NCBI RefSeq assembly: GCF_000511355.1
Contig: NC_023135.1
Location: 565,462-629,461, forward strand
Source: Leisingera methylohalidivorans DSM 14336
GTDB lineage: Bacteria; Pseudomonadota; Alphaproteobacteria; Rhodobacterales; Rhodobacteraceae
Reading direction: 5' to 3'
DNA length: 64,000 nt
Position 1 is the stretch's first letter, and every line of letters begins with the position of its first letter. The notes beneath the pieces are model-generated. The model worked only from the letters and a program-made list of their open reading frames with translations, had not been told where the DNA came from and ran no database searches. Below, piece by piece: positions 7,952-60,891 of this stretch. The translations under genes and the position numbers were made by a program.

Positions 7952-8596
7952 ATGACAGAAATCAAACCCCTCGGTATCATCCTCGCAGGCGGCCTCGCCA
8001 CCCGGATGGGCGGCGGCGACAAGGGGCGGCTGCAGGTCGGCGGCCAAAGCCTGCTGTCCCGCGTCGTGGGCCGGCTTTCGCCGCAAGTCGCGGGCCTCGC
8101 GCTTAACGCCAATGGCGATCCGGAGCGGTTCGATGACCTGGGGCTGCCGGTCATTGCCGACTCGATAGAGGGCTTCGCCGGCCCGCTGGCGGGTGTGCTC
8201 GCGGGCCTCGACTGGGCGGCAGAGCAGGGCGCGGAGACCATCGTCACCGCCGCCGCCGATACGCCGTTTTTCCCGCAGGACCTGGTGACCCGGCTGACCG
8301 CCGCGGCAGAAGGGATGGACCATCCGCTGGTTATGGCCACCACCCCGCGCACCGGCGACGAGGCGCTGAAGTCCGGCGGCGGCAAGCGGATCAACCGCCA
8401 CCCGGCCTTTGGTCTGTGGCCGGTTGCCTTACGCGAAGACCTGCGCGCCGCGCTGAATGATGGCCTGCGCAAGGTGGTCATCTGGACCGACCGGCACGGC
8501 GGCCGCGAGGCCCTGTTCGGGGCCGATCCCTTTGATCCCTTCTTCAACATCAACACGCCTGAGGATCTGGCCCGCGCCGAGGCGCTGCTGAAATGA
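7952..8596 (+). CDS. mobA: Molybdenum cofactor guanylyltransferase MobA
   Basis: Transfers GMP from GTP to molybdopterin to make MGD. The 214-residue product carries the nucleotidyltransferase signature ILAGGLATRMGGGDKGRL near the N terminus, the AADTPFFP metal-binding aspartate region, and the terminal FFNINTPEDLARAE typical of MobA. ATG 7952 is preceded by GGAGAAGG. The frame could extend 25 codons upstream, but that part is unlike the family. It overlaps mobB by 4 bases. Confidence 0.95.
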   Translation: MTEIKPLGIILAGGLATRMGGGDKGRLQVGGQSLLSRVVGRLSPQVAGLALNANGDPERFDDLGLPVIADSIEGFAGPLAGVLAGLDWAAEQGAETIVTAAADTPFFPQDLVTRLTAAAEGMDHPLVMATTPRTGDEALKSGGGKRINRHPAFGLWPVALREDLRAALNDGLRKVVIWTDRHGGREALFGADPFDPFFNINTPEDLARAEALLK

Positions 8597-9084
8597 AGAT
8601 CTACGGCGTCACCGGCTGGAAGAACAACGGCAAGACCGGGCTGATGGAACGGCTGGTAACGGAGTTCACGTCCCGCGGCCTCACTGTCTCCACCATCAAG
8701 CACGCCCATCACGCAACGGACGTGGACCAGCCCGGCACCGACAGCTACCGCCACCGCCAGGCAGGCGCGTCCGAGGTGGTGCTGGCCTCGGCAGGGCGCG
8801 TGGCAATCATGCAAGAGCTGCGCGGCGCAGCAGAGCCGCCGCTGGCCGAGCTGCTGGCGCGCTTGCGTCCGGTCGATCTGGTGCTGGTCGAGGGCTACAA
8901 ACGCGAACCCCACCCCAAGGTCGAGGCCTGCCGGAAGGCCGCAGGCACAGACCTGATCGCTCTGCAGGATGCCAGCATCCGGGCCGTCGCCAGCGACACC
9001 CCGCTGGATCTGGACCGCCCGGTTTTTGATCTGAACGCCACTTCGGCGATTGCGGATTTCATCCAGTTGGACTTGGGTCTGTGA
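8593..9084 (+). CDS. mobB: Molybdopterin-guanine dinucleotide biosynthesis protein MobB
   Basis: A 163-residue P-loop GTP-binding protein that assists MobA. The Walker A motif is GWKNNGKTGL at residues 8-17, followed by TIKHAHH and the DVDQPGTDSYRHRQAGA segment characteristic of MobB. LVLVEGYKREPHPKVE marks the C-terminal half. It overlaps mobA and the following moeA fusion gene by 4 bases each (ATGA and GTGA), which predicts one coupled transcript. Confidence 0.95.
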   Translation: MKIYGVTGWKNNGKTGLMERLVTEFTSRGLTVSTIKHAHHATDVDQPGTDSYRHRQAGASEVVLASAGRVAIMQELRGAAEPPLAELLARLRPVDLVLVEGYKREPHPKVEACRKAAGTDLIALQDASIRAVASDTPLDLDRPVFDLNATSAIADFIQLDLGL

Positions 9085-43969: not shown

Positions 43970-46921
43970 TCAGATGCTCAGCGCTTCGTTCACGAGGGCT
44001 GCTTGTTGGGCTTTGTGCTGGCTGGCCAGACCGGTTGCAGGAGAGGCCGAGGTGGCGCGGCCGGCATAGACGGGCCGGGTGTGCTTGGCCTTGATGCGGG
44101 TCAGCACCCATTCGATGTTGGGCTCGATGAAGGTCCAGGCGCCCTGGTTCTTGGGCTCTTCCTGGCACCAGACCATTTCCGCCTGCTTGAAGCGTTCCAG
44201 CTCCTTCACCATCGAGATCGCCGGGAACGGGTAGAACTGTTCGACCCGCATCAGGTAAATATCATCGATGCCGCGGGCGTCGCGTTCTTCCAAGAGGTCG
44301 TAGTAGACCTTGCCCGAGCACATGACGACGCGCTTGATCTTGTCATCCGCCACCAGCTGGGTGTCGGAGTTGCCTTTCTGCGCATCATCCCACAGCACCC
44401 GGTGGAAGCTGGAGCCGGTGGTGAAATCCTCGGCGTTGGAGACCGCCAGCTTGTGGCGCAGCAGCGATTTCGGGGTCATCATGATCAGCGGCTTGCGGAA
44501 GGTGCGGTGCAGCTGGCGGCGCAGGATGTGGAAATAGTTCGCAGGCGTGGTGCAGTTGGCCACGATCCAGTTGTCCTGGCCGCACATCTGCAGGAAGCGT
44601 TCCAGCCGGGCAGAGGAATGCTCGGGGCCCTGGCCCTCGAAGCCATGCGGCAGCAGGCAGACCAGGCCCGACATCCGCAGCCATTTGCTTTCGCCGGAGG
44701 AAATGAACTGGTCGAACATGATCTGCGCGCCGTTGGCGAAATCACCGAACTGGGCCTCCCACAGGGTGAGGGCGTTGGGTTCGGCCAGCGAATAGCCGTA
44801 TTCAAACCCCAGCACCGCGTATTCCGACAGCGCCGAGTCGATCACGTCGAATTGCGACTGGCCGGCGCGGATGTTGTTGAGCGGATAGTAGCGCTCCTCG
44901 GTCTCCTGGTTGACGATGCCGGAATGGCGCTGCGAGAAGGTGCCGCGGGTGGCGTCCTGGCCGGACAGGCGCACCGGGTAGCCCTCCAGCAGCAGCGAGC
45001 CGAATGCCAGCGCCTCGCCGGTCGCCCAGTCAAAACCCTGGCCGGTTTCAAACATCTTGCCGCGGGCATCCAGGAACCGGCCGACGGTGCGGTGCATCGG
45101 GAAGCCGTCCGGCACCCGGCTGAGCGAAGCGCCGATCTCGGACAGGGTTTCCGGCGGGATCGCGGTGCGGCCGCGCTGATAGTCGGCGTCTTTCTTGTCC
45201 AGATGCGACCAGCGCCCGTCCAGCCAGTCGGCCTTGTTGGGTTTGTAATTCTTGCCGGTCTCGAACTCCTCGTTGAGATGCGCCTGAAACGCGGCCTTCA
45301 TGTCCTCGATCTCGCCCTCGGGGATCAGTCCGTCCTTGACCAGCCGGTCTGTGTAGAGCGTCAGCGTGGTCTTATGGCCCTTGATCTTCTTGTACATCAA
45401 CGGGTTGGTGAACATCGGCTCGTCGCCTTCGTTGTGACCGAAGCGGCGGTAGCAGAAGATGTCGAGCACCACATCCTTGTGGAACTTCTGGCGGAATTCG
45501 GTGGCGACGCGGGCGGCGTGGACCACCGCCTCCGGATCGTCGCCGTTGACGTGGAAAATCGGCGCCTCAACCACCAGCGCATTGTCGGTGGGATAGGGGG
45601 AGGAGCGCGAGAAATGCGGGGCGGTGGTGAAACCGATCTGGTTGTTCACCACGATGTGCATGGTGCCGCCCGCCTTATGGCCGCGCAGGCCGGAGAGAGC
45701 AAAACATTCCGCCACCACGCCCTGGCCGGCAAAGGCCGCGTCGCCGTGCAGCAGGATCGGCAGCACCTGGCTGCGGTCAGTGTCGCCCAGCTGGTCCTGC
45801 TTGGCGCGGACCTTGCCCAGAACCACCGGGTTCACCGCCTCGAGGTGCGAGGGGTTGGCGGTGAGGCTGAGGTGCACGTTGTTGCCATCAAAGGAGCGGT
45901 CGGAGGAGGCGCCGAGGTGGTATTTCACATCACCGGAGCCGTCCACGTCCTCGGGCTTGAAGCTGCCGCCCTGGAATTCGTTGAAGATGGCGCGGTAGGG
46001 TTTCTGCATCACATTGGCCAGCACCGACAGGCGGCCGCGGTGCGGCATGCCGATCACGATGTCGCGCACCCCCAGCGCGCCGCCGCGTTTGATGATCTGC
46101 TCCATCGCCGGAATCAGGCTTTCGCCGCCATCAAGACCGAACCGCTTGGTGCCGGTGTATTTGACGTGCAGGAATTTCTCGAAGCCCTCGGCCTCGACCA
46201 TCTTGTTGAGGATTGCCTTGCGGCCCTCCCGGGTAAAGCGGATTTCCTTGTCGTAGCCCTCGATCCGTTCTTTCAGCCAGGCGGATTGCTCGGGGTTGGA
46301 AATATGCATGTACTGCAGCGCGAAGGTGCCGCAATAGGTGCGTTTCACGATGTCGACGATCTGGCGCATGGTGGCGACCTGCAGGCCCAGCACGTTGTCG
46401 ATAAAGATCGGCCGGTCCATGTCGCCGTCGGTGAAACCATAGGTTTTCGGGTCCAGCTCCGGAAGCGCCGTGGCGGCATGCATGCCCAGCGGGTCCAGGT
46501 CCGCTGCCAGATGGCCGCGGATCCGGTAGGCGCGGATCAGCATCAGGGCGCGGATCGAGTCAAGAACGGCGCGCTGCACCTGATCGTCGGTGACCTCAAC
46601 GCCCTTGGCGGAAGCCTTCTCCTTGATCTTCTTGCTTGCGCCCTTGGCCTCAGCCGGGGCCGGCCATTCGCCGGTCAGCGCGCCGGTGATGTCATCTGCG
46701 GGCGCGGGCGGCCAGTCATCGCGCGCCCAGGAGGGGCCCTGAGCCTCAGCCTTCACATCCAGTTCGGCGTCGCCCATCTGGCGGAAGAACTCGGCCCAGG
46801 CGGCATCCACCGCATTCGGGTCATTGGCGTACTGGGCATAAAGCTGCTCCAGATACTCCGCATTGTGCCCCTGCATGAAGGAGGAGGCGTGGAAGAGGTC
46901 GTTGGGGCTTTGTTCGGTCAT
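43970..46921 (-). CDS. sucA: 2-oxoglutarate dehydrogenase E1 component
   Basis: ThDP-dependent decarboxylation of 2-oxoglutarate. The 983-residue protein has the short E1o N-terminal segment (FHASSFMQGHNAEYLEQLYA), which docks E2. Later motifs include GMPHRGRLSVLANVM, LLHGDAAFAGQGVVAE, the GDDPEAVVHAARVATEFRQK pyrophosphate-binding region and HSSARLERFLQM. Start ATG 46921 overlaps the upstream DUF805 gene by 4 bases; the longer frame is that overlap. Length is normal for alphaproteobacteria. Confidence 0.96.
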   Translation of the reverse strand: MTEQSPNDLFHASSFMQGHNAEYLEQLYAQYANDPNAVDAAWAEFFRQMGDAELDVKAEAQGPSWARDDWPPAPADDITGALTGEWPAPAEAKGASKKIKEKASAKGVEVTDDQVQRAVLDSIRALMLIRAYRIRGHLAADLDPLGMHAATALPELDPKTYGFTDGDMDRPIFIDNVLGLQVATMRQIVDIVKRTYCGTFALQYMHISNPEQSAWLKERIEGYDKEIRFTREGRKAILNKMVEAEGFEKFLHVKYTGTKRFGLDGGESLIPAMEQIIKRGGALGVRDIVIGMPHRGRLSVLANVMQKPYRAIFNEFQGGSFKPEDVDGSGDVKYHLGASSDRSFDGNNVHLSLTANPSHLEAVNPVVLGKVRAKQDQLGDTDRSQVLPILLHGDAAFAGQGVVAECFALSGLRGHKAGGTMHIVVNNQIGFTTAPHFSRSSPYPTDNALVVEAPIFHVNGDDPEAVVHAARVATEFRQKFHKDVVLDIFCYRRFGHNEGDEPMFTNPLMYKKIKGHKTTLTLYTDRLVKDGLIPEGEIEDMKAAFQAHLNEEFETGKNYKPNKADWLDGRWSHLDKKDADYQRGRTAIPPETLSEIGASLSRVPDGFPMHRTVGRFLDARGKMFETGQGFDWATGEALAFGSLLLEGYPVRLSGQDATRGTFSQRHSGIVNQETEERYYPLNNIRAGQSQFDVIDSALSEYAVLGFEYGYSLAEPNALTLWEAQFGDFANGAQIMFDQFISSGESKWLRMSGLVCLLPHGFEGQGPEHSSARLERFLQMCGQDNWIVANCTTPANYFHILRRQLHRTFRKPLIMMTPKSLLRHKLAVSNAEDFTTGSSFHRVLWDDAQKGNSDTQLVADDKIKRVVMCSGKVYYDLLEERDARGIDDIYLMRVEQFYPFPAISMVKELERFKQAEMVWCQEEPKNQGAWTFIEPNIEWVLTRIKAKHTRPVYAGRATSASPATGLASQHKAQQAALVNEALSI

Positions 46922-47424
46922 TTTGGTGCCTCGTGCGGGTTGGGACCGTATTTGTTGGTGCCGGGTTCCGAGGGCAGTATCAGCTGCCCTGCGAGCGGGC
47001 CGATCCAAAAGACCGACGCCAGAAGAACAAAAGGAAAGCTTAGCCAGTAGAGAGCAACCAAGAGGTAGGCAATCAGAACGGGAATACCTCCCAGTAGGGC
47101 GTCAAAGCCAAGTTCCCAAATCATCATTGAAGCAAAGAAGTATGCGATAGGCGTAAACGGCAGGAAAACGCCTTGTCCGGCTTCGCCTGTGTCCTGCAGA
47201 CGCCGTGCGCCGGACGCGAGCAACGGGAGGAAGGCCACAAACGTCAGCATCAGTACGCCAATAGAAGGATAGTCCACGTTCAAATACTTCTGCGAAAGCG
47301 GGAATGTCACAACTGGAAGCATAAGCCCGAAAGGTGCGAAGGCCCAAAATCTTGAGCGGGTAGTGCGCCCTCGGAAGTTTAATCCGTCGGCTAGCTCCAG
47401 AGTTATGGTGCTTAGGACGCTCAT
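46918..47424 (-). CDS. DUF805 family membrane protein inside the suc operon
   Basis: A 168-residue membrane protein. The DUF805 motifs are GRTTRSRFWAFAPFGLM near the N terminus and ASGARRLQDTGEAGQGVFLP in the middle, with four hydrophobic segments. Function unknown; some DUF805 proteins are linked to envelope stress. GC content is lower than in the flanking genes. It starts 95 bases after sucD and ends overlapping the sucA start (ATGA), so sucA translation is coupled to it. Confidence 0.85.
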   Translation of the reverse strand: MSVLSTITLELADGLNFRGRTTRSRFWAFAPFGLMLPVVTFPLSQKYLNVDYPSIGVLMLTFVAFLPLLASGARRLQDTGEAGQGVFLPFTPIAYFFASMMIWELGFDALLGGIPVLIAYLLVALYWLSFPFVLLASVFWIGPLAGQLILPSEPGTNKYGPNPHEAPK

Positions 47425-47519
47425 GGAATTAGGGTGAACTTGGCCGAGACATGGCAGAACACCTGCCCCTGCAAGGGGCAGGCTTTGCAAGCCGCACATT
47501 CACCCGGCTCACAGTCATC

Positions 47520-48404
47520 CTACTTGCCGATCGCTTTCAGAACCGCTTCGCCCAGGCCGGCCGGGCTTTCGGCGACCACGATGCCTGCGGATTTCATCGC
47601 TTCGATCTTGTCCTCGGCACCGCCCTTGCCGCCGGCCACAATCGCGCCCGCGTGGCCCATGCGGCGGCCCGGAGGGGCGGTGCGGCCGGCGATGAAACCT
47701 GCAACCGGCTTCTTGCGGCCCTTCTTGGCCTCGTCGGCCAGGAACTGGGCGGCTTCTTCCTCGGCGGAGCCGCCGATTTCGCCGATCATGATGATGCTCT
47801 CGGTCTCGTCATCACCCAGGAACCATTCCAGCACGTCGATATGCTCGGTACCCTTGATCGGGTCGCCGCCGATGCCGACGCAGGTCGACTGGCCGAGGCC
47901 GACGTCGGTGGTCTGCTTCACCGCCTCATAGGTCAGGGTGCCGGAGCGGGACACAACACCGACGGAGCCGCGGCGGTGGATATGGCCGGGCATGATGCCG
48001 ATCTTGCAGGCGTCAGGCGTGATGACGCCGGGGCAGTTGGGGCCGATCAGGCGCGACTTGGAGGTTTCCAGCGCCCGCTTGACCCGCATCATGTCCAGCA
48101 CCGGGATGCCTTCGGTGATGCAGACGATCACTTCCATTTCGGCGTCGATCGCCTCGAGGATGGAATCCGCGGCAAAGGGCGGCGGCACGTAGATGACAGA
48201 GGCATTGGCCTCGGTCACATGCTTGGCTTCATGCACGGAGTTGAACACCGGCAGGCCCAGATGCTCCATGCCGCCTTTGCCGGGGGTGACACCGCCGACC
48301 ATTTTGGTGCCATAGGCGATGGCCTGTTCAGAGTGGAAAGTGCCCTGCGAGCCGGTGAAGCCCTGACAGATAACTTTGGTGTTTTCGTCGATAAGGACTG
48401 CCAT
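47520..48404 (-). CDS. sucD: Succinyl-CoA synthetase alpha subunit
   Basis: A 294-residue subunit with the CoA-binding Rossmann N terminus ([20 protein letters not shown]) and the active-site histidine in [19 protein letters not shown]. It also has [20 protein letters not shown]. It makes ATP or GTP from succinyl-CoA together with SucC. ATG 48404 gives the standard length; the longer frame adds 46 residues from the GT25 gene. A glycosyltransferase gene separates it from sucC. Confidence 0.96.
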
Positions 48405-48417
48405 GATGTCGGTTCCT

Positions 48418-49245
48418 TCAAGCGGTATGTGTCTGTTGGTTCTGCGGGGTGGCCAATGAACGGCCGTCGAAGCGGATTTTTTCGAGGGTGGCCCGCCCCA
48501 GGACCACACTGGGAAAGACTCTGAAGCCGCCGCGGAATTCATAGATCCCGCGCCGGAGTTTCTGACGGATCAGCGGCCAGCCCTTGGGGCGGTGGCGCGC
48601 CGGGCCGATGGCGTGTTCGTCCGGCGCCTCGTTGCCCTGTTCGGCAAGCGCCGGCTGGACCTGATAGACCTTGATGGCGCGCGCCGGCTGTGAGGCATCA
48701 AAGTTGAACAGGAGGTTGTCCAGGGTGATGTCAAACGGCCGGCTGTCCAGAAGGTGCTGCGCCGCCCGGCGCGAGATCGCATAAGCTGCGCCGCCTGCGT
48801 GGCGGGACAGCATCTGGCGCACCTCGCGGCCCATATGGGTGACGCCATCCTTGCCAAGCGCGACCTGCAGCCGCGTCGCCCGCCAGCGTTCAAACTTGAC
48901 GATGCCGGCATCCGCGGGCCACCAGGCCAGGTCGTTCAGCCAGGCGCCGGTGTCGGGTGACAGGAAAACGTCATCCTCCAGGATCAGCGCCACATCGGCG
49001 TCTGATTCCAGAAACGCCTCCCAGGCCTTGGCATGGCTGAGGGTGCAGGCCATGTCCTTGGTCTGGAAATAGCCCCAGTTGCCCTCGGATTTGCATTGCT
49101 GCAGCATTTCCTCGCGGCTGACCCGGGTGCTGTCCACCGCATCGATGCGCACAGCCGAAAGCCCGGCCTGATCCAGCTCCCGCTGCATCAGCTCCGCCCG
49201 GCCCGTGGCCTGCTGCAAGCCTATGAGGTAGACAGCCGCCTTCAC
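48418..49245 (-). CDS. Glycosyltransferase family 25 (LPS-type) protein between sucC and sucD
   Basis: A 275-residue GT25 protein of the kind that adds sugars to lipooligosaccharide. It has the family start [37 protein letters not shown], the metal-binding [14 protein letters not shown] and the [17 protein letters not shown] segment. It starts with GTG 12 bases after the sucC stop and ends 13 bases before the sucD start, in the same orientation. A glycosyltransferase inside an enzyme-subunit pair is odd. The acceptor is unknown. Confidence 0.85.
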
Positions 49246-49257
49246 CGGTTCTGTCCC

Positions 49258-50451
49258 TTAGCCCTTTACCGCTTTTACGATTTTCTCGGCGCCGTCTTTC
49301 AGGTTGTCGGCGGCGATCACGTCGAGGCCGGAGGTGTTGATGATCTCCTTGCCCTTCTCGACATTGGTGCCTTCAAGGCGGACCACCAGCGGCACCTTCA
49401 GGCCGACTTCCTTCACGGCCGCAACCACGCCCTCGGCGATGACGTCGCAGCGCATGATGCCGCCGAAGATGTTCACCAGGATGCCTTTGACCTGCGGGTC
49501 GGAGGTGATGATCTTGAACGCCTCGGTCACCTTTTCCTTGGTGGCGCCGCCGCCCACGTCGAGGAAGTTGGCAGGCTCGGCCCCGTACAGCTTGATGATG
49601 TCCATGGTGGCCATCGCCAGGCCTGCGCCGTTCACCATGCAGCCGATCTCACCGTCCAGCGCGATGTAGTTCAGGTCGTATTTCGAGGCTTCCAGCTCTT
49701 TCGGGTCTTCCTCGGTGGTGTCGCGCAGCTCGGCCACATCGGCGTGGCGGTAGACCGCGTTGCCGTCAAAGCCGACCTTGGCGTCCAGCACCTTGAGGCT
49801 GCCGTCGTCCGCCACGATCAGCGGGTTGATCTCCAGCATCTCCATGTCCTTGTCGACAAAGGCTTGATACAGCTGGCCCATCAGTTTGACGCATTGTTTC
49901 ACCTGGGCGCCTTTCAGGCCCAGCGAGAAGGCGATGCGGCGGCCGTGGTAAGCCTGGTAGCCGGTGGCCGGATCAACGCTGAACGACAGGATCTTCTCCG
50001 GGGTGGCCGCAGCCACTTCCTCGATGTCCATGCCGCCTTCGGTCGAGCAGACAAAGGAAATGCGCGAGGTCTGGCGGTCGACCAGCAGCGCCAGGTACAG
50101 TTCGGTCTCGATGCCGGAGCCGGCCTCGATGTAGATGCGGTTCACCTGCTTGCCGGCCGGGCCGGTCTGATGGGTGACCAGGGTGCGGCCCAGCATCTTC
50201 TTGGCTTCCTCGGCGGCTTCCTCGACCGATTTGGTCAGGCGCACGCCGCCCTTTTCGCCGGCATCCGCTTCCTTGAAGGAGCCCTTGCCGCGGCCGCCTG
50301 CGTGGATCTGTGCCTTGACCACCCACAGCGGGCCGTCGAGTTCACCGGCGGCGGTTTTGGCATCTTCGGCTTTCAGCACCACGCGTCCGTCGGACACCGG
50401 AGCACCGTAGCTGCGAAGAAGGGCTTTTGCCTGATATTCGTGGATGTTCAT
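49258..50451 (-). CDS. sucC: Succinyl-CoA synthetase beta subunit
   Basis: A 397-residue ATP-grasp subunit that binds nucleotide. It has [52 protein letters not shown] and the C-terminal [20 protein letters not shown]. Length is standard. mdh upstream has its own terminator, so the 302-base gap must hold the promoter of the sucC-to-lpdA operon. That gap contains the paired palindromes. Confidence 0.97.
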
Positions 50452-50561
50452 CTGAAACTGTCCCGTCTGGCTGCAATTGTCTGTCGTTAATAGGCCGTCT
50501 TAAAGCCAAGTGTTAAAGGCTTATTTGACAGGGTGCGGGGAAATGACGAAGATTTTCAGGT

Positions 50562-50596
50562 TTTGTGATCACGGATTTTGGGGGTGTGATCACAAA
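50562..50596 (-). promoter_or_regulatory. Paired GTGATCAC palindromes upstream of sucC
   Basis: TTTGTGATCAC (50562-50572) and GTGATCACAAA (50586-50596) form an inverted pair, each core itself an 8-base palindrome. Centres are 21 bases apart, two helical turns. The near edge is 111 bases before the sucC start. The same arrangement occurs upstream of sdhC. It is probably a cooperative operator; the regulator is not identified. Confidence 0.7.
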
Positions 50597-50709
50597 TTTT
50601 CAGAAGCTTAACGGTGGTGATTCGAAGCTGGCAGCATTGGACCGCCACCGCCGTATCATGAACCAAAAGCGTCAAGTGCCGGGGCCGGTACGCCGCGGCA
50701 AAAGAAAAG

Positions 50710-50729
50710 GGTCCGCCGAAGCGGACCCC
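50710..50729 (-). terminator. Rho-independent terminator of mdh
   Basis: GGGTCCGC-CGAA-GCGGACCC, 25 bases after the mdh stop on the minus strand, continuing into TTTTCTTTT. It separates mdh from the suc operon. Confidence 0.85.
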
Positions 50730-50753
50730 CTGATCTGTGCAAGGCTGGATGGC

Positions 50754-57308: not shown

Positions 57309-57354
57309 TTTGCAGATTGCCTTGTGATTCTGCAAAAAATTTCCAATCCGCGGA

Positions 57355-57388
57355 TTTGTGATCACTAATTATTTGCTGTGATCACAAG
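57355..57388 (+). promoter_or_regulatory. Paired GTGATCAC palindromes upstream of sdhC
   Basis: TTTGTGATCAC and GTGATCACAAG with centres 20 bases apart (57361.5 and 57381.5), matching the pair upstream of sucC. The near edge is about 117 bases before the sdhC start. A weaker third element, TTGTGATTCTGCAA, lies at 57322-57335. TTTAACACTT follows at 57429-57438, as in the suc promoter. Confidence 0.7.
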
Positions 57389-57502
57389 TCGTGGCCTTTT
57401 AGCGCCAACAGAGCAATTTCACGTGGTTTTTAACACTTCCTCCGGGTGACACGCCGTAAAAATCGGCTAAAACGTCGTCAGCCAACCTGAAAAGGAGCCA
57501 TC

Positions 57503-57886
57503 ATGGCCGATGTCAATCGGGGCAACCGCCCGCTTTCGCCGCATTTGCAGGTCTACCGGCCGCAGCTGACCTCTGTGACGTCGATCCTGACGCGGATCAC
57601 CGGCAACGCGCTGATCGTCTCGGCGCTGCTGATTGCCTGGTGGTTCCTGGCCGCTGCTACCTCGCCTGAATATTTTGCCACCGCCAACGGCGTGCTGACC
57701 AGCTGGTTCGGCGACCTGGTGATGACCCTGTCGGCACTGGGGCTGTGGTATCACACGCTGGCGGGCATCCGGCACCTGATCTGGGACAATGGCTACATGC
57801 TGGAACTGGATCAGGCCGAGAAGCTGGGCTGGTTTGTGATCACGGGTTCGGCAGTTCTGACCGTTCTGACCATTATCATCGTCTAA
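57503..57886 (+). CDS. sdhC: Succinate dehydrogenase cytochrome b556 subunit
   Basis: A 127-residue membrane anchor of complex II. It has RPLSPHLQVYRPQLTSVTSI with the conserved quinone-site serine/arginine region, three transmembrane helices and the heme-ligand histidine in YHTLAGIRHLIWD. Strong RBS AAAGGAG. First gene of sdhCDAB, preceded by the paired palindromes. Confidence 0.95.
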   Translation: MADVNRGNRPLSPHLQVYRPQLTSVTSILTRITGNALIVSALLIAWWFLAAATSPEYFATANGVLTSWFGDLVMTLSALGLWYHTLAGIRHLIWDNGYMLELDQAEKLGWFVITGSAVLTVLTIIIV

Positions 57887-57903
57887 GCTGGGGACATAAC
57901 GCG

Positions 57904-58275
57904 ATGCGATATCTGACTGACCGCAAGCGCGCCGTAGGCATGGGCGCTGCAAAATCCGGAACCAGCCACCACTGGTCGATGCAGGTGAGCTCGATTGCTC
58001 TCCTGATCCTGGTGCCGCTGTTTGTCTTCACCTTCGGCCCGGCGCTGGGCGGATCCTATGAAGAGATCACCGCCTATTATGCGCGTCCCTTCCCGGCACT
58101 TGTGGCGGCGCTGACGATCTGGGTCGGCATGATGCACTTTAAATCCGGCGCCCAGATCATGATCGAGGATTACGTTCACGGCGTCAAAGGCCGCCTGACG
58201 ATTATCCTGGTCAACTGCCTGTCCTATGCTGTCGCCGCGACCAGCGCCTATGCGCTGATCCGCCTGGCCCTGTAA
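57904..58275 (+). CDS. sdhD: Succinate dehydrogenase hydrophobic membrane anchor subunit
   Basis: A 123-residue three-helix anchor. It has [20 protein letters not shown] at the N terminus and [18 protein letters not shown], which carries the second heme/quinone-site residues (HxxxGxxxxxxDY pattern). ATG 57904 lies 18 bases after sdhC; an upstream in-frame extension overlaps sdhC and is not needed. Confidence 0.94.
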
Positions 58276-58294: not shown

Positions 58295-60100
58295 ATGGCT
58301 GCTTACGAATACGAAACACATGAATATGACGTGGTCGTGGTTGGCGCCGGCGGGGCTGGCCTCCGCGCGACGCTGGGCATGGCCGAGCAGGGCCTGCGCA
58401 CTGCCTGCGTGACCAAAGTGTTCCCGACCCGTTCCCACACCGTGGCGGCGCAGGGCGGTATTGCCGCCAGCTTGGGCAACATGGGGCCGGACAGCTGGCA
58501 GTGGCATATGTATGACACTGTCAAGGGCTCGGACTGGCTGGGCGACACCGACGCGATGGAATACCTGGCGCGCGAAGCCCCCAAAGCGGTCTATGAGCTG
58601 GAGCATTACGGTGTGCCGTTCAGCCGGACCGAAGAGGGCAAGATCTACCAGCGCCCGTTCGGCGGCCACACCACCGAGTTCGGCGAAGGCCCGCCGGTGC
58701 AGCGCACCTGCGCCGCCGCCGACCGCACCGGCCACGCGATCCTGCACACGCTGTATGGCCAGAGCCTCAAGAACAACGCGGAATTCTACATCGAGTATTT
58801 CGCCATCGACCTGATCATGTCCGAGGACGGGCAGTGCCAGGGCGTGGTCTGCTGGAAGCTGGATGACGGCACCATGCATGTCTTCAACGCCAAGATGGTG
58901 GTGCTGGCGACCGGCGGTTACGGCCGCGCCTATTTCTCGGCGACCTCGGCGCATACCTGCACCGGCGACGGCGGCGGCATGGTGGCGCGCGCAGGCCTGG
59001 CGCTGCAGGACATGGAGTTCGTGCAATTCCACCCGACCGGCATCTACGGTTCCGGCTGCCTGATCACCGAAGGCGCGCGGGGTGAGGGCGGCTACCTCAC
59101 CAACTCCGAAGGCGAACGCTTCATGGAGCGCTACGCGCCCCAGTACAAAGACCTGGCGCCGCGCGACTATGTCAGCCGCTCGATGACCATGGAAATCCGC
59201 GAAGGCCGCGGTGTGGGGGCCGAGGGCGACCACATCCACCTGAACCTCAACCACCTGCCGGCCGAGGCGCTGGCGGAACGGCTGCCGGGCATTTCCGAGT
59301 CGGCCAAGATCTTTGCCGGTGTGGATGTCACCAAGGAGCCGATCCCGGTTCTGCCCACCGTGCACTACAACATGGGCGGCATCCCGACCAACTATTGGGG
59401 CGAGGTGCTGAACCCGACGGATGAGGATCCGACCGGTGTTGTGCCGGGTCTGATGGCGGTGGGCGAGGCGGGCTGCGCCTCGGTGCATGGCGCCAACCGT
59501 CTGGGTTCCAACTCGCTGATCGACCTGGTGGTCTTCGGCCGCGCCTCGGCCATCCGCGCAGGCAAGGTTGTGGATCCAGAGGCGGCCAACCCGGTGCTGA
59601 ACACGGCATCCGTGGACAAGGCGTTTGACCGCTTTGACAGCCTGCGCAATGCCAAGGGCGGCATCCCGACCGCGGATCTGCGGCTGGAGATGCAGCGCAC
59701 CATGCAGGCGGATGCGGCGGTGTTCCGCACCGACAAGACCCTGAAAGAGGGTCTCGGGAAGATGACCGCCATCGCGGCCAAGCTGGACGACCTGGCGGTG
59801 ACCGATCGGTCGCTGGTGTGGAACTCCGACCTGATGGAGACACTGGAGCTGACCAATCTGATGCCCAACGCGCTGGCCACCATCGTGGGCGCAGAGGCCC
59901 GCAAGGAAAGCCGCGGCGCCCATGCGCATGAGGATTACGCAACCCGAGACGACGAGAACTGGCGCGTGCACACCGTGTCCCGTGTCGAGGGTAACGAGGT
60001 GCAGCTCAGTTACCGCCCGGTGATCACCGACCCGCTGTCGACCGAAGACGAAGGCGGCATCAGCCTCAAGAAAATCGCGCCCAAGGCGCGGACGTTCTAA
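58295..60100 (+). CDS. sdhA: Succinate dehydrogenase flavoprotein subunit
   Basis: Catalytic subunit oxidising succinate to fumarate. The 601-residue protein has [20 protein letters not shown], the covalent-FAD histidine in [15 protein letters not shown] (His48), the active-site [20 protein letters not shown] and the late [20 protein letters not shown]. Length is standard. It lies 19 bases after sdhD. Confidence 0.98.
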
Positions 60101-60111
60101 GGAGACAGATT

Positions 60112-60891
60112 ATGGTACAATTCAGCCTCCCCAAGAACTCGCGCATGACCACCGGCAAAACCTGGCCCAAGCCGGAGGGCGCCGCCAATGTGCGCAAGTT
60201 CAAGATCTACCGCTGGAACCCGGACGACGGCGAGAACCCGCGTGTCGATACATATTTCCTGGATATGGACACCTGCGGGCCGATGGTGCTGGACGCGCTG
60301 ATCAAGATCAAGAACGAGATTGATCCGACCCTGACCTTCCGCCGCTCCTGCCGCGAAGGCATCTGCGGGTCCTGCGCAATGAACATCGACGGCATCAACA
60401 CGCTGGCCTGTATCTATGGCATGGACGAGATCAAGGGCGATGTGGCGATCTACCCGCTGCCGCATATGCCGGTGATCAAGGACCTGATCCCGGATCTGAC
60501 GCATTTCTATGCTCAGCATGCGTCGATCATGCCCTGGCTGGAAACCAAGACCAACCGCCCCGCGAAAGAGTGGAAGCAGTCGATCGAGGACCGCAAGAAA
60601 CTGGACGGGCTATATGAATGCGTGATGTGCGCCAGCTGCTCGACCTCCTGTCCCAGCTACTGGTGGAACGGCGACCGCTACCTTGGCCCCGCCGCATTGC
60701 TGCACGCCTACCGCTGGATCATCGACAGCCGCGACGAGGCCACGCCGGAACGGCTGGATCAGCTGGAAGATCCGTTCAAGCTCTACCGCTGCCACACCAT
60801 CATGAACTGCGCCAAGACCTGCCCCAAGGGTTTGAACCCGGCCAAGGCGATTTCACATATCAAGCAAATGATGGTCGAGCGCAGCGTTTGA
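60112..60891 (+). CDS. sdhB: Succinate dehydrogenase iron-sulfur subunit
   Basis: Electron-relay subunit with three clusters. The 259-residue protein has the [2Fe-2S] motif [15 protein letters not shown] with a later LACI cysteine, the [4Fe-4S] motif [17 protein letters not shown], and the [3Fe-4S]/[4Fe-4S] motif [17 protein letters not shown]. Last gene of the operon, 11 bases after sdhA, followed by a strong terminator. Confidence 0.98.

Follow-up and report, generated by a model that had tools for sequence, protein, structure and literature searches.

In a 64,000-nucleotide stretch of the Leisingera methylohalidivorans DSM 14336 genome (contig NC_023135.1, positions 565,462 to 629,461; hereafter, the window), sdhC and sucC, genes of two operons of the tricarboxylic acid (TCA) cycle, are each preceded by two copies of the palindrome GTGATCAC. 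Judging by sequence comparison, these pairs are very probably docking sites of AkgR, a regulator of the GntR family with an FCD domain. We hold with high confidence the explanation as a whole, namely, that the pair is an AkgR operator, from which AkgR would activate sdhC and sucC in a class-I-like manner, and that AkgR would repress its own gene in many genera. The first-pass annotation of this DNA had suggested a dedicated, unnamed TCA regulator. One regulator common to sdh and suc is what we find as well, but it has already been named and studied (excerpts of PMC6365646 and PMC4344238), and its regulon, including the link to sdh and suc, is known from print. The earlier observation is thus of a known regulator's operator, well spotted and partly misread. 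Our analysis ties an operator of TCA genes to a regulator that already has a name, in most of the genera sampled from a major family of aquatic bacteria, pinpoints the orthologue in this genome, and corrects the promoter assignment of sdhC; the interest centres on the conserved two-turn pair and on the whole-turn steps at sdhC.

Operator pairs in the window

The sdhC pair is located on the forward strand at 57355-57388 and has the structure TTT-GTGATCAC-N12-GTGATCAC-AAG, with palindromes at 57358-57365 and 57378-57385 and 117 bases separating it from the sdhC ATG at 57503. The sucC pair (50562-50596, minus strand) lies past the end of mdh and ahead of sucC, whose ATG is at 50451 on the same strand; its palindromes occupy 50565-50572 and 50586-50593. 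The pairs described earlier are real. The description of centres 20 bp apart and of TTT/AAG flanks holds at sdhC but not at sucC, where the centres are 21 bp apart and the flanks are TTT/AAA.

The 8-mer GTGATCAC has seven copies in the window, while 100 shuffles yielded 0.67 on average and three at most. The three unpaired copies (3947, 57836, and 60020) all fall within open reading frames (ORFs), as had been noted, although the two positions quoted, 3948 and 57837, were one base off. Searching for exact pairs, with a spacer of 6-30 bp permitted between two copies, we found only the sdhC and sucC sites in the whole 4.65-Mb genome. A search allowing three mismatches gave 156 matches on each strand; it used a different half-site phase (21-bp start offset) and therefore leaves out the pairs. 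Elsewhere in the genome, TGTGATCACA has two further exact sites, both inside an ORF: identical copies of a 226-codon ORF ∼386 kb apart (G000:C1:3465925 and 3851715) each carry TGTGATCACA, and their identity is a sign of recent duplication.

Conservation of the pair

The first-pass annotation had proposed to look for the pair in relatives, and it is kept there: among 149 genomes, one per genus of Rhodobacteraceae, 133 contain the exact pair. The reversed-pattern control of the genome searches was given little weight, as it contains CTAG, which is rare in genomes of this type. We then scanned upstream regions, allowing at most one mismatch per palindrome and spacings of 14-50. The gene sdhC is present in 142 of the 149 genomes; 121 sdhC upstream regions were used, 120 drawn from the 141 other genomes plus that of the window, along with 95 sucC regions. 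The pair was found in 104 of the 121 sdhC regions (spacing 21 in 91, 20 in 12, and 19 in one) and in 93 of the 95 sucC regions (21 in 85, 20 in eight). At the named loci, the 21-bp pair stands in 4/4 sdhC and 7/7 usable sucC regions, the latter recounted for full-length genes preceded by 200 bases or more; in two others the upstream stretch was too short. One further sucC match (L342, 51%, probably a paralogue) has no pair upstream.

In a class-wide sample of 289 genomes, all four members of the same family have the exact pair; outside the family, 16 of 285 genomes match a loose pattern, mostly at other spacings. In G260, from outside the family, two GTGATCAC copies whose centres are separated by 24 bp (G260:C207:9058-9089) adjoin a 36% FCD homologue at 8303-8908, which suggests that a broader set of regulators may share the palindrome.

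Identity of the regulator

This genome was found to have 21 FCD-domain genes; the AkgR orthologue among them lies at C1:438868-439518, ∼126 kb before the window. It encodes GntR and FCD domains, and GTGATCAC occurs 60 and 16 bases ahead of its start. The best match of AkgR beyond the family has E = 5.2e-44 and 39% identity. AkgR is reportedly RSP_0981. The assignment of our protein as its orthologue is based on synteny in genome G051, where a protein 78% identical to ours, and 95% identical to AkgR of Cereibacter ovatus, is encoded 4.7 kb past sdhC. The order in G051 (sdhC, sdhD, sdhA, small ORFs, sdhB, one more ORF, and the akgR orthologue) fits the tags RSP_0974 to RSP_0981, the gene-by-gene match being our own reading.

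The motif, the predicted targets, and the activator role are taken from published work. In the excerpted text, GtGATCAC is among the sites reported for AkgR of Rhodobacter sphaeroides, and AkgR is termed an activator (PMC6365646). RSP_0981, of the GntR family, is given in part of a second paper as the predicted regulator of sucCD (RSP_0967-6), sdh (RSP_0974-6), and 2-oxoglutarate dehydrogenase (RSP_0965-62) (PMC4344238). The 21-bp pairing is not mentioned in the titles and abstract openings searched, but these did not cover the AkgR paper itself, so this says little.

The orthologue, called at E ≤ 1e-50, and the pair occur together. Both are found in 130 of the 149 genomes and neither in 13, with three having the orthologue only and three the pair only (cells tallied by hand; Fisher p = 1.8e-13). 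Of the 17 sdhC regions that lack the pair, five are from genomes with an AkgR orthologue; the other 12 are from genomes that have none.

In an alignment of 24 AkgR sequences (A1), residues N131, H135, H178, and D200 are invariant. Presumably they match the metal-ligand places of FCD domains, elsewhere Asp, His, His, and His. As they differ from this set, the effector site of AkgR may differ too.

Promoters downstream of the pair

In addition to the pair, the sdhC regions share an element 3' of it, consisting of GTGACA, 16 bp, and TAnnAa. In the window, the predicted sdhC promoter (57446-57473, forward strand) is comprised of GTGACA at 57446-57451 and TAAAAC at 57468-57473, scoring 9/9, and transcription is predicted to start near 57480. 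Scores of at least 8 out of 9 are reached in 66 of the 104 pair-bearing sdhC loci, compared to a mean of 1.45 in shuffled sequences. Of the 12 pairless regions from genomes lacking AkgR, 11 also lack a GTGACA promoter scoring at least 8, G048 being the exception.

The predicted sucC promoter (50487-50516, minus strand) is comprised of TTAACA at 50516-50511 and TATTAA at 50492-50487, scoring 8/10 at offset 55, with a predicted start near 50480. The TTTAA/TATA pattern at sucC is weaker than the one at sdhC: at least 8/10 in 32 of 93 loci (6.2 in shuffles) and at least 9/10 in 18 of 93 (0.2 in shuffles).

The first-pass annotation had seen a third shared element, TTTAACACTT, and a three-part promoter design common to both operons. 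Exact copies of TTTAACACTT do exist at 57429-57438 (forward strand) and 50508-50517 (minus strand), but they are not conserved in relatives: TTTAACA follows the pair in one of 104 sdhC regions and one of 93 sucC regions, both being the window itself. At sucC, only its TTTA core is found repeatedly, at offset 54-56 in 31 of 93 regions. At sdhC, TTTAACACTT was judged a coincidence and the three-part design rejected; the conserved -35 box there is GTGACA at 57446-57451, 17 bp further along than TTTAACACTT. Between operator and promoter, the sdhC regions of relatives (L109-L228) have a moderately conserved element with the consensus gccaaaaaaccgcgc; the window version at 57397-57414, TTTTAGCGCCAACAGAGC, seems weak.

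Geometry and proposed mechanism

At sdhC, GTGACA follows the first base of the proximal palindrome by 65-69 bp in 60 of the 66 loci, and the six outlying values, 56, 57, 78, 78, 79, and 88, are one or two helix turns off the main class (p = 8e-5, tested against uniform placement). These whole-turn steps suggest activation from a fixed face of the DNA. At sucC, the distance in the 32 loci is 53-55 in 27, 44-45 in three, 29 in one, and 69 in one; chance alone would give 6.2 loci, so little can be read into the small classes. With starts assumed 12 bases after the first base of the -10 box and the sucC loci at 29 and 69 dropped before taking medians, the proximal palindrome centres near -97.5 at sdhC and -87.5 at sucC, the helical period not being fixed by this computation.

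We infer that one AkgR dimer probably binds each 8-bp palindrome, so that two dimers would lie about two helix turns apart on the same face of the DNA, centred near -98/-118 of sdhC and -88/-109 of sucC. From there AkgR would assist RNA polymerase, in a class-I-like mode of activation, at promoters with -35 boxes other than TTGACA. At its own gene, in many genera, an AkgR site over the expected -10 region would lead to repression.

To consider the latter, we collected 44 distinct akgR upstream regions, 40 from orthologues, leaning to the closest ones, plus those from G051, G026, G111, and the genome studied here; an exact site lies at most 85 bases from the start of the match in 37 of the 44. 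Among the named loci nearest the Cereibacter-type protein (L269-L348), a site within 150 bases is present in 14 of 79 and missing in 65; in 12 of these 14, the first base of a TTGAC or TTGAT lies 18 bp before that of the site, placing the latter over the expected -10 region. Even with the akgR site missing, Cereibacter-type loci retain the sdhC and sucC pairs wherever checkable. The uneven distribution suggests that autorepression is likely but lineage-specific.

One regulator may act in two geometries: a two-dimer unit shifted only by whole turns at sdhC, and perhaps at sucC, would make it a class-I-like activator, while a site over the -10 region of its own gene would make it a repressor in many genera. 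We give this more specific proposal about an even chance. If true, the activator design would be unlike that of AkgR's mostly repressor relatives, and a comparison of whole-turn and half-turn spacing offers a sharp test of transcription activation by a GntR protein.

Alternative explanations

Several observations weigh against our interpretation. The pair occurs without a detected orthologue in G019, G096 (77% complete), and G114, and an orthologue is present while the sdhC pair is missing in five loci (L137, L216, L218, L224, and L228). No promoter scoring 8/9 is seen in 38 of the 104 pair-bearing sdhC loci, and lowering the cut-off to 7/9 admits 84 loci (shuffles would give 14), of which three, at 11, 32, and 35, do not fit the phase. 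Moreover, the sampled genera are related, making the p values optimistic, and a paralogue of AkgR, discussed below, is associated with the pair as well, though less strongly than AkgR (p = 2.7e-4).

Of the competing explanations, the one that survives best, though it is unlikely, is that AkgR binds the pair but represses sdh and suc, the two sites serving cooperative occupancy. Many characterised GntR proteins are repressors. Part of one paper describes paired sites at a constant distance for FadR-subfamily divergons (PMC4494728). However, the proximal site is ∼53-69 bp upstream of the -35 box in most scored loci and hence not over the promoter, and the excerpt on AkgR calls it an activator (PMC6365646).

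It is considerably less probable that the main binder is another GntR/FCD paralogue, for instance, the one encoded at G000:C1:4095936-4096619 (L029). This protein has the same domains as AkgR, to which it is 38% identical over 205 residues, and TGATCA occurs 93 bases before its start; besides, G019 has the pair and the paralogue, with no AkgR orthologue found. Still, a close relative of the paralogue (E below 1e-50) exists in just 73 of the 149 genomes, 61 of the 133 pair-bearing genomes lack one, and AkgR fits the distribution of the pair far better.

We find it hardly credible that the pair is a CRP/FNR-type or CceR site. While TGTGATCACA resembles CRP half-sites, CRP/FNR-type motifs have the form TGTGA-N6-TCACA or TTGAT-N4-ATCAA, and here the half-sites abut, without an N6 or N4 gap; on this ground such a site was rejected. 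In the parts of PMC4344238 consulted, no CRP analogue is predicted for R. sphaeroides, and CceR (RSP_1663) figures as a further predicted regulator of sdh in this species. The CceR motif as printed in these parts, [AGT]GTT-N6-8-AAC[ACT] (PMC4344238), is absent from 57309-57502 and 50452-50753, and a CceR site was likewise rejected. Finally, chance or codon-driven occurrence can practically be dismissed: the core is found inside genes too, but pairs at near-fixed spacing at two orthologous promoters across genera refute it.

Genes of the two operons

The first gene of the sdh operon is sdhC (57503-57886, Pfam Sdh_cyt), followed on the forward strand by sdhD (57886-58275), sdhA (58295-60100), and sdhB (60112-60891), named by NCBIfam. 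On the minus strand, sucC (49258-50451) carries the Pfam domains ATP-grasp_2 and Ligase_CoA; sucD, within 47520-48542, and sucA, at 43970-47008, were also named by NCBIfam. Ahead of sucA (2-oxoglutarate dehydrogenase), the stretch 46900-47520 contains no palindrome site even when one mismatch is tolerated; sucA, which follows sucC on the minus strand, may be transcribed from the sucC promoter.

Comparison with known systems

The nearest solved structure by sequence is McbR of Escherichia coli (4p9f), a GntR-family protein (E = 2e-19, and 2.2e-24 with a profile); it is a distant relative. In Pseudomonas simiae, the GntR protein PS417_07240 of the deoxyribonate cluster, 32% identical to R. sphaeroides AkgR, is proposed to use GTGATCAC, as stated in the excerpted text (PMC6365646), but its gene has one site only, 47-40 bases ahead of the start codon, and belongs to another pathway. 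The closest counterpart is the AkgR (RSP_0981) regulon of R. sphaeroides, similar in the palindrome GTGATCAC, the predicted targets sucCD and sdh, and the orthologous regulator; unlike there, akgR in the genome studied here is far from sdh and bears two upstream sites of its own.
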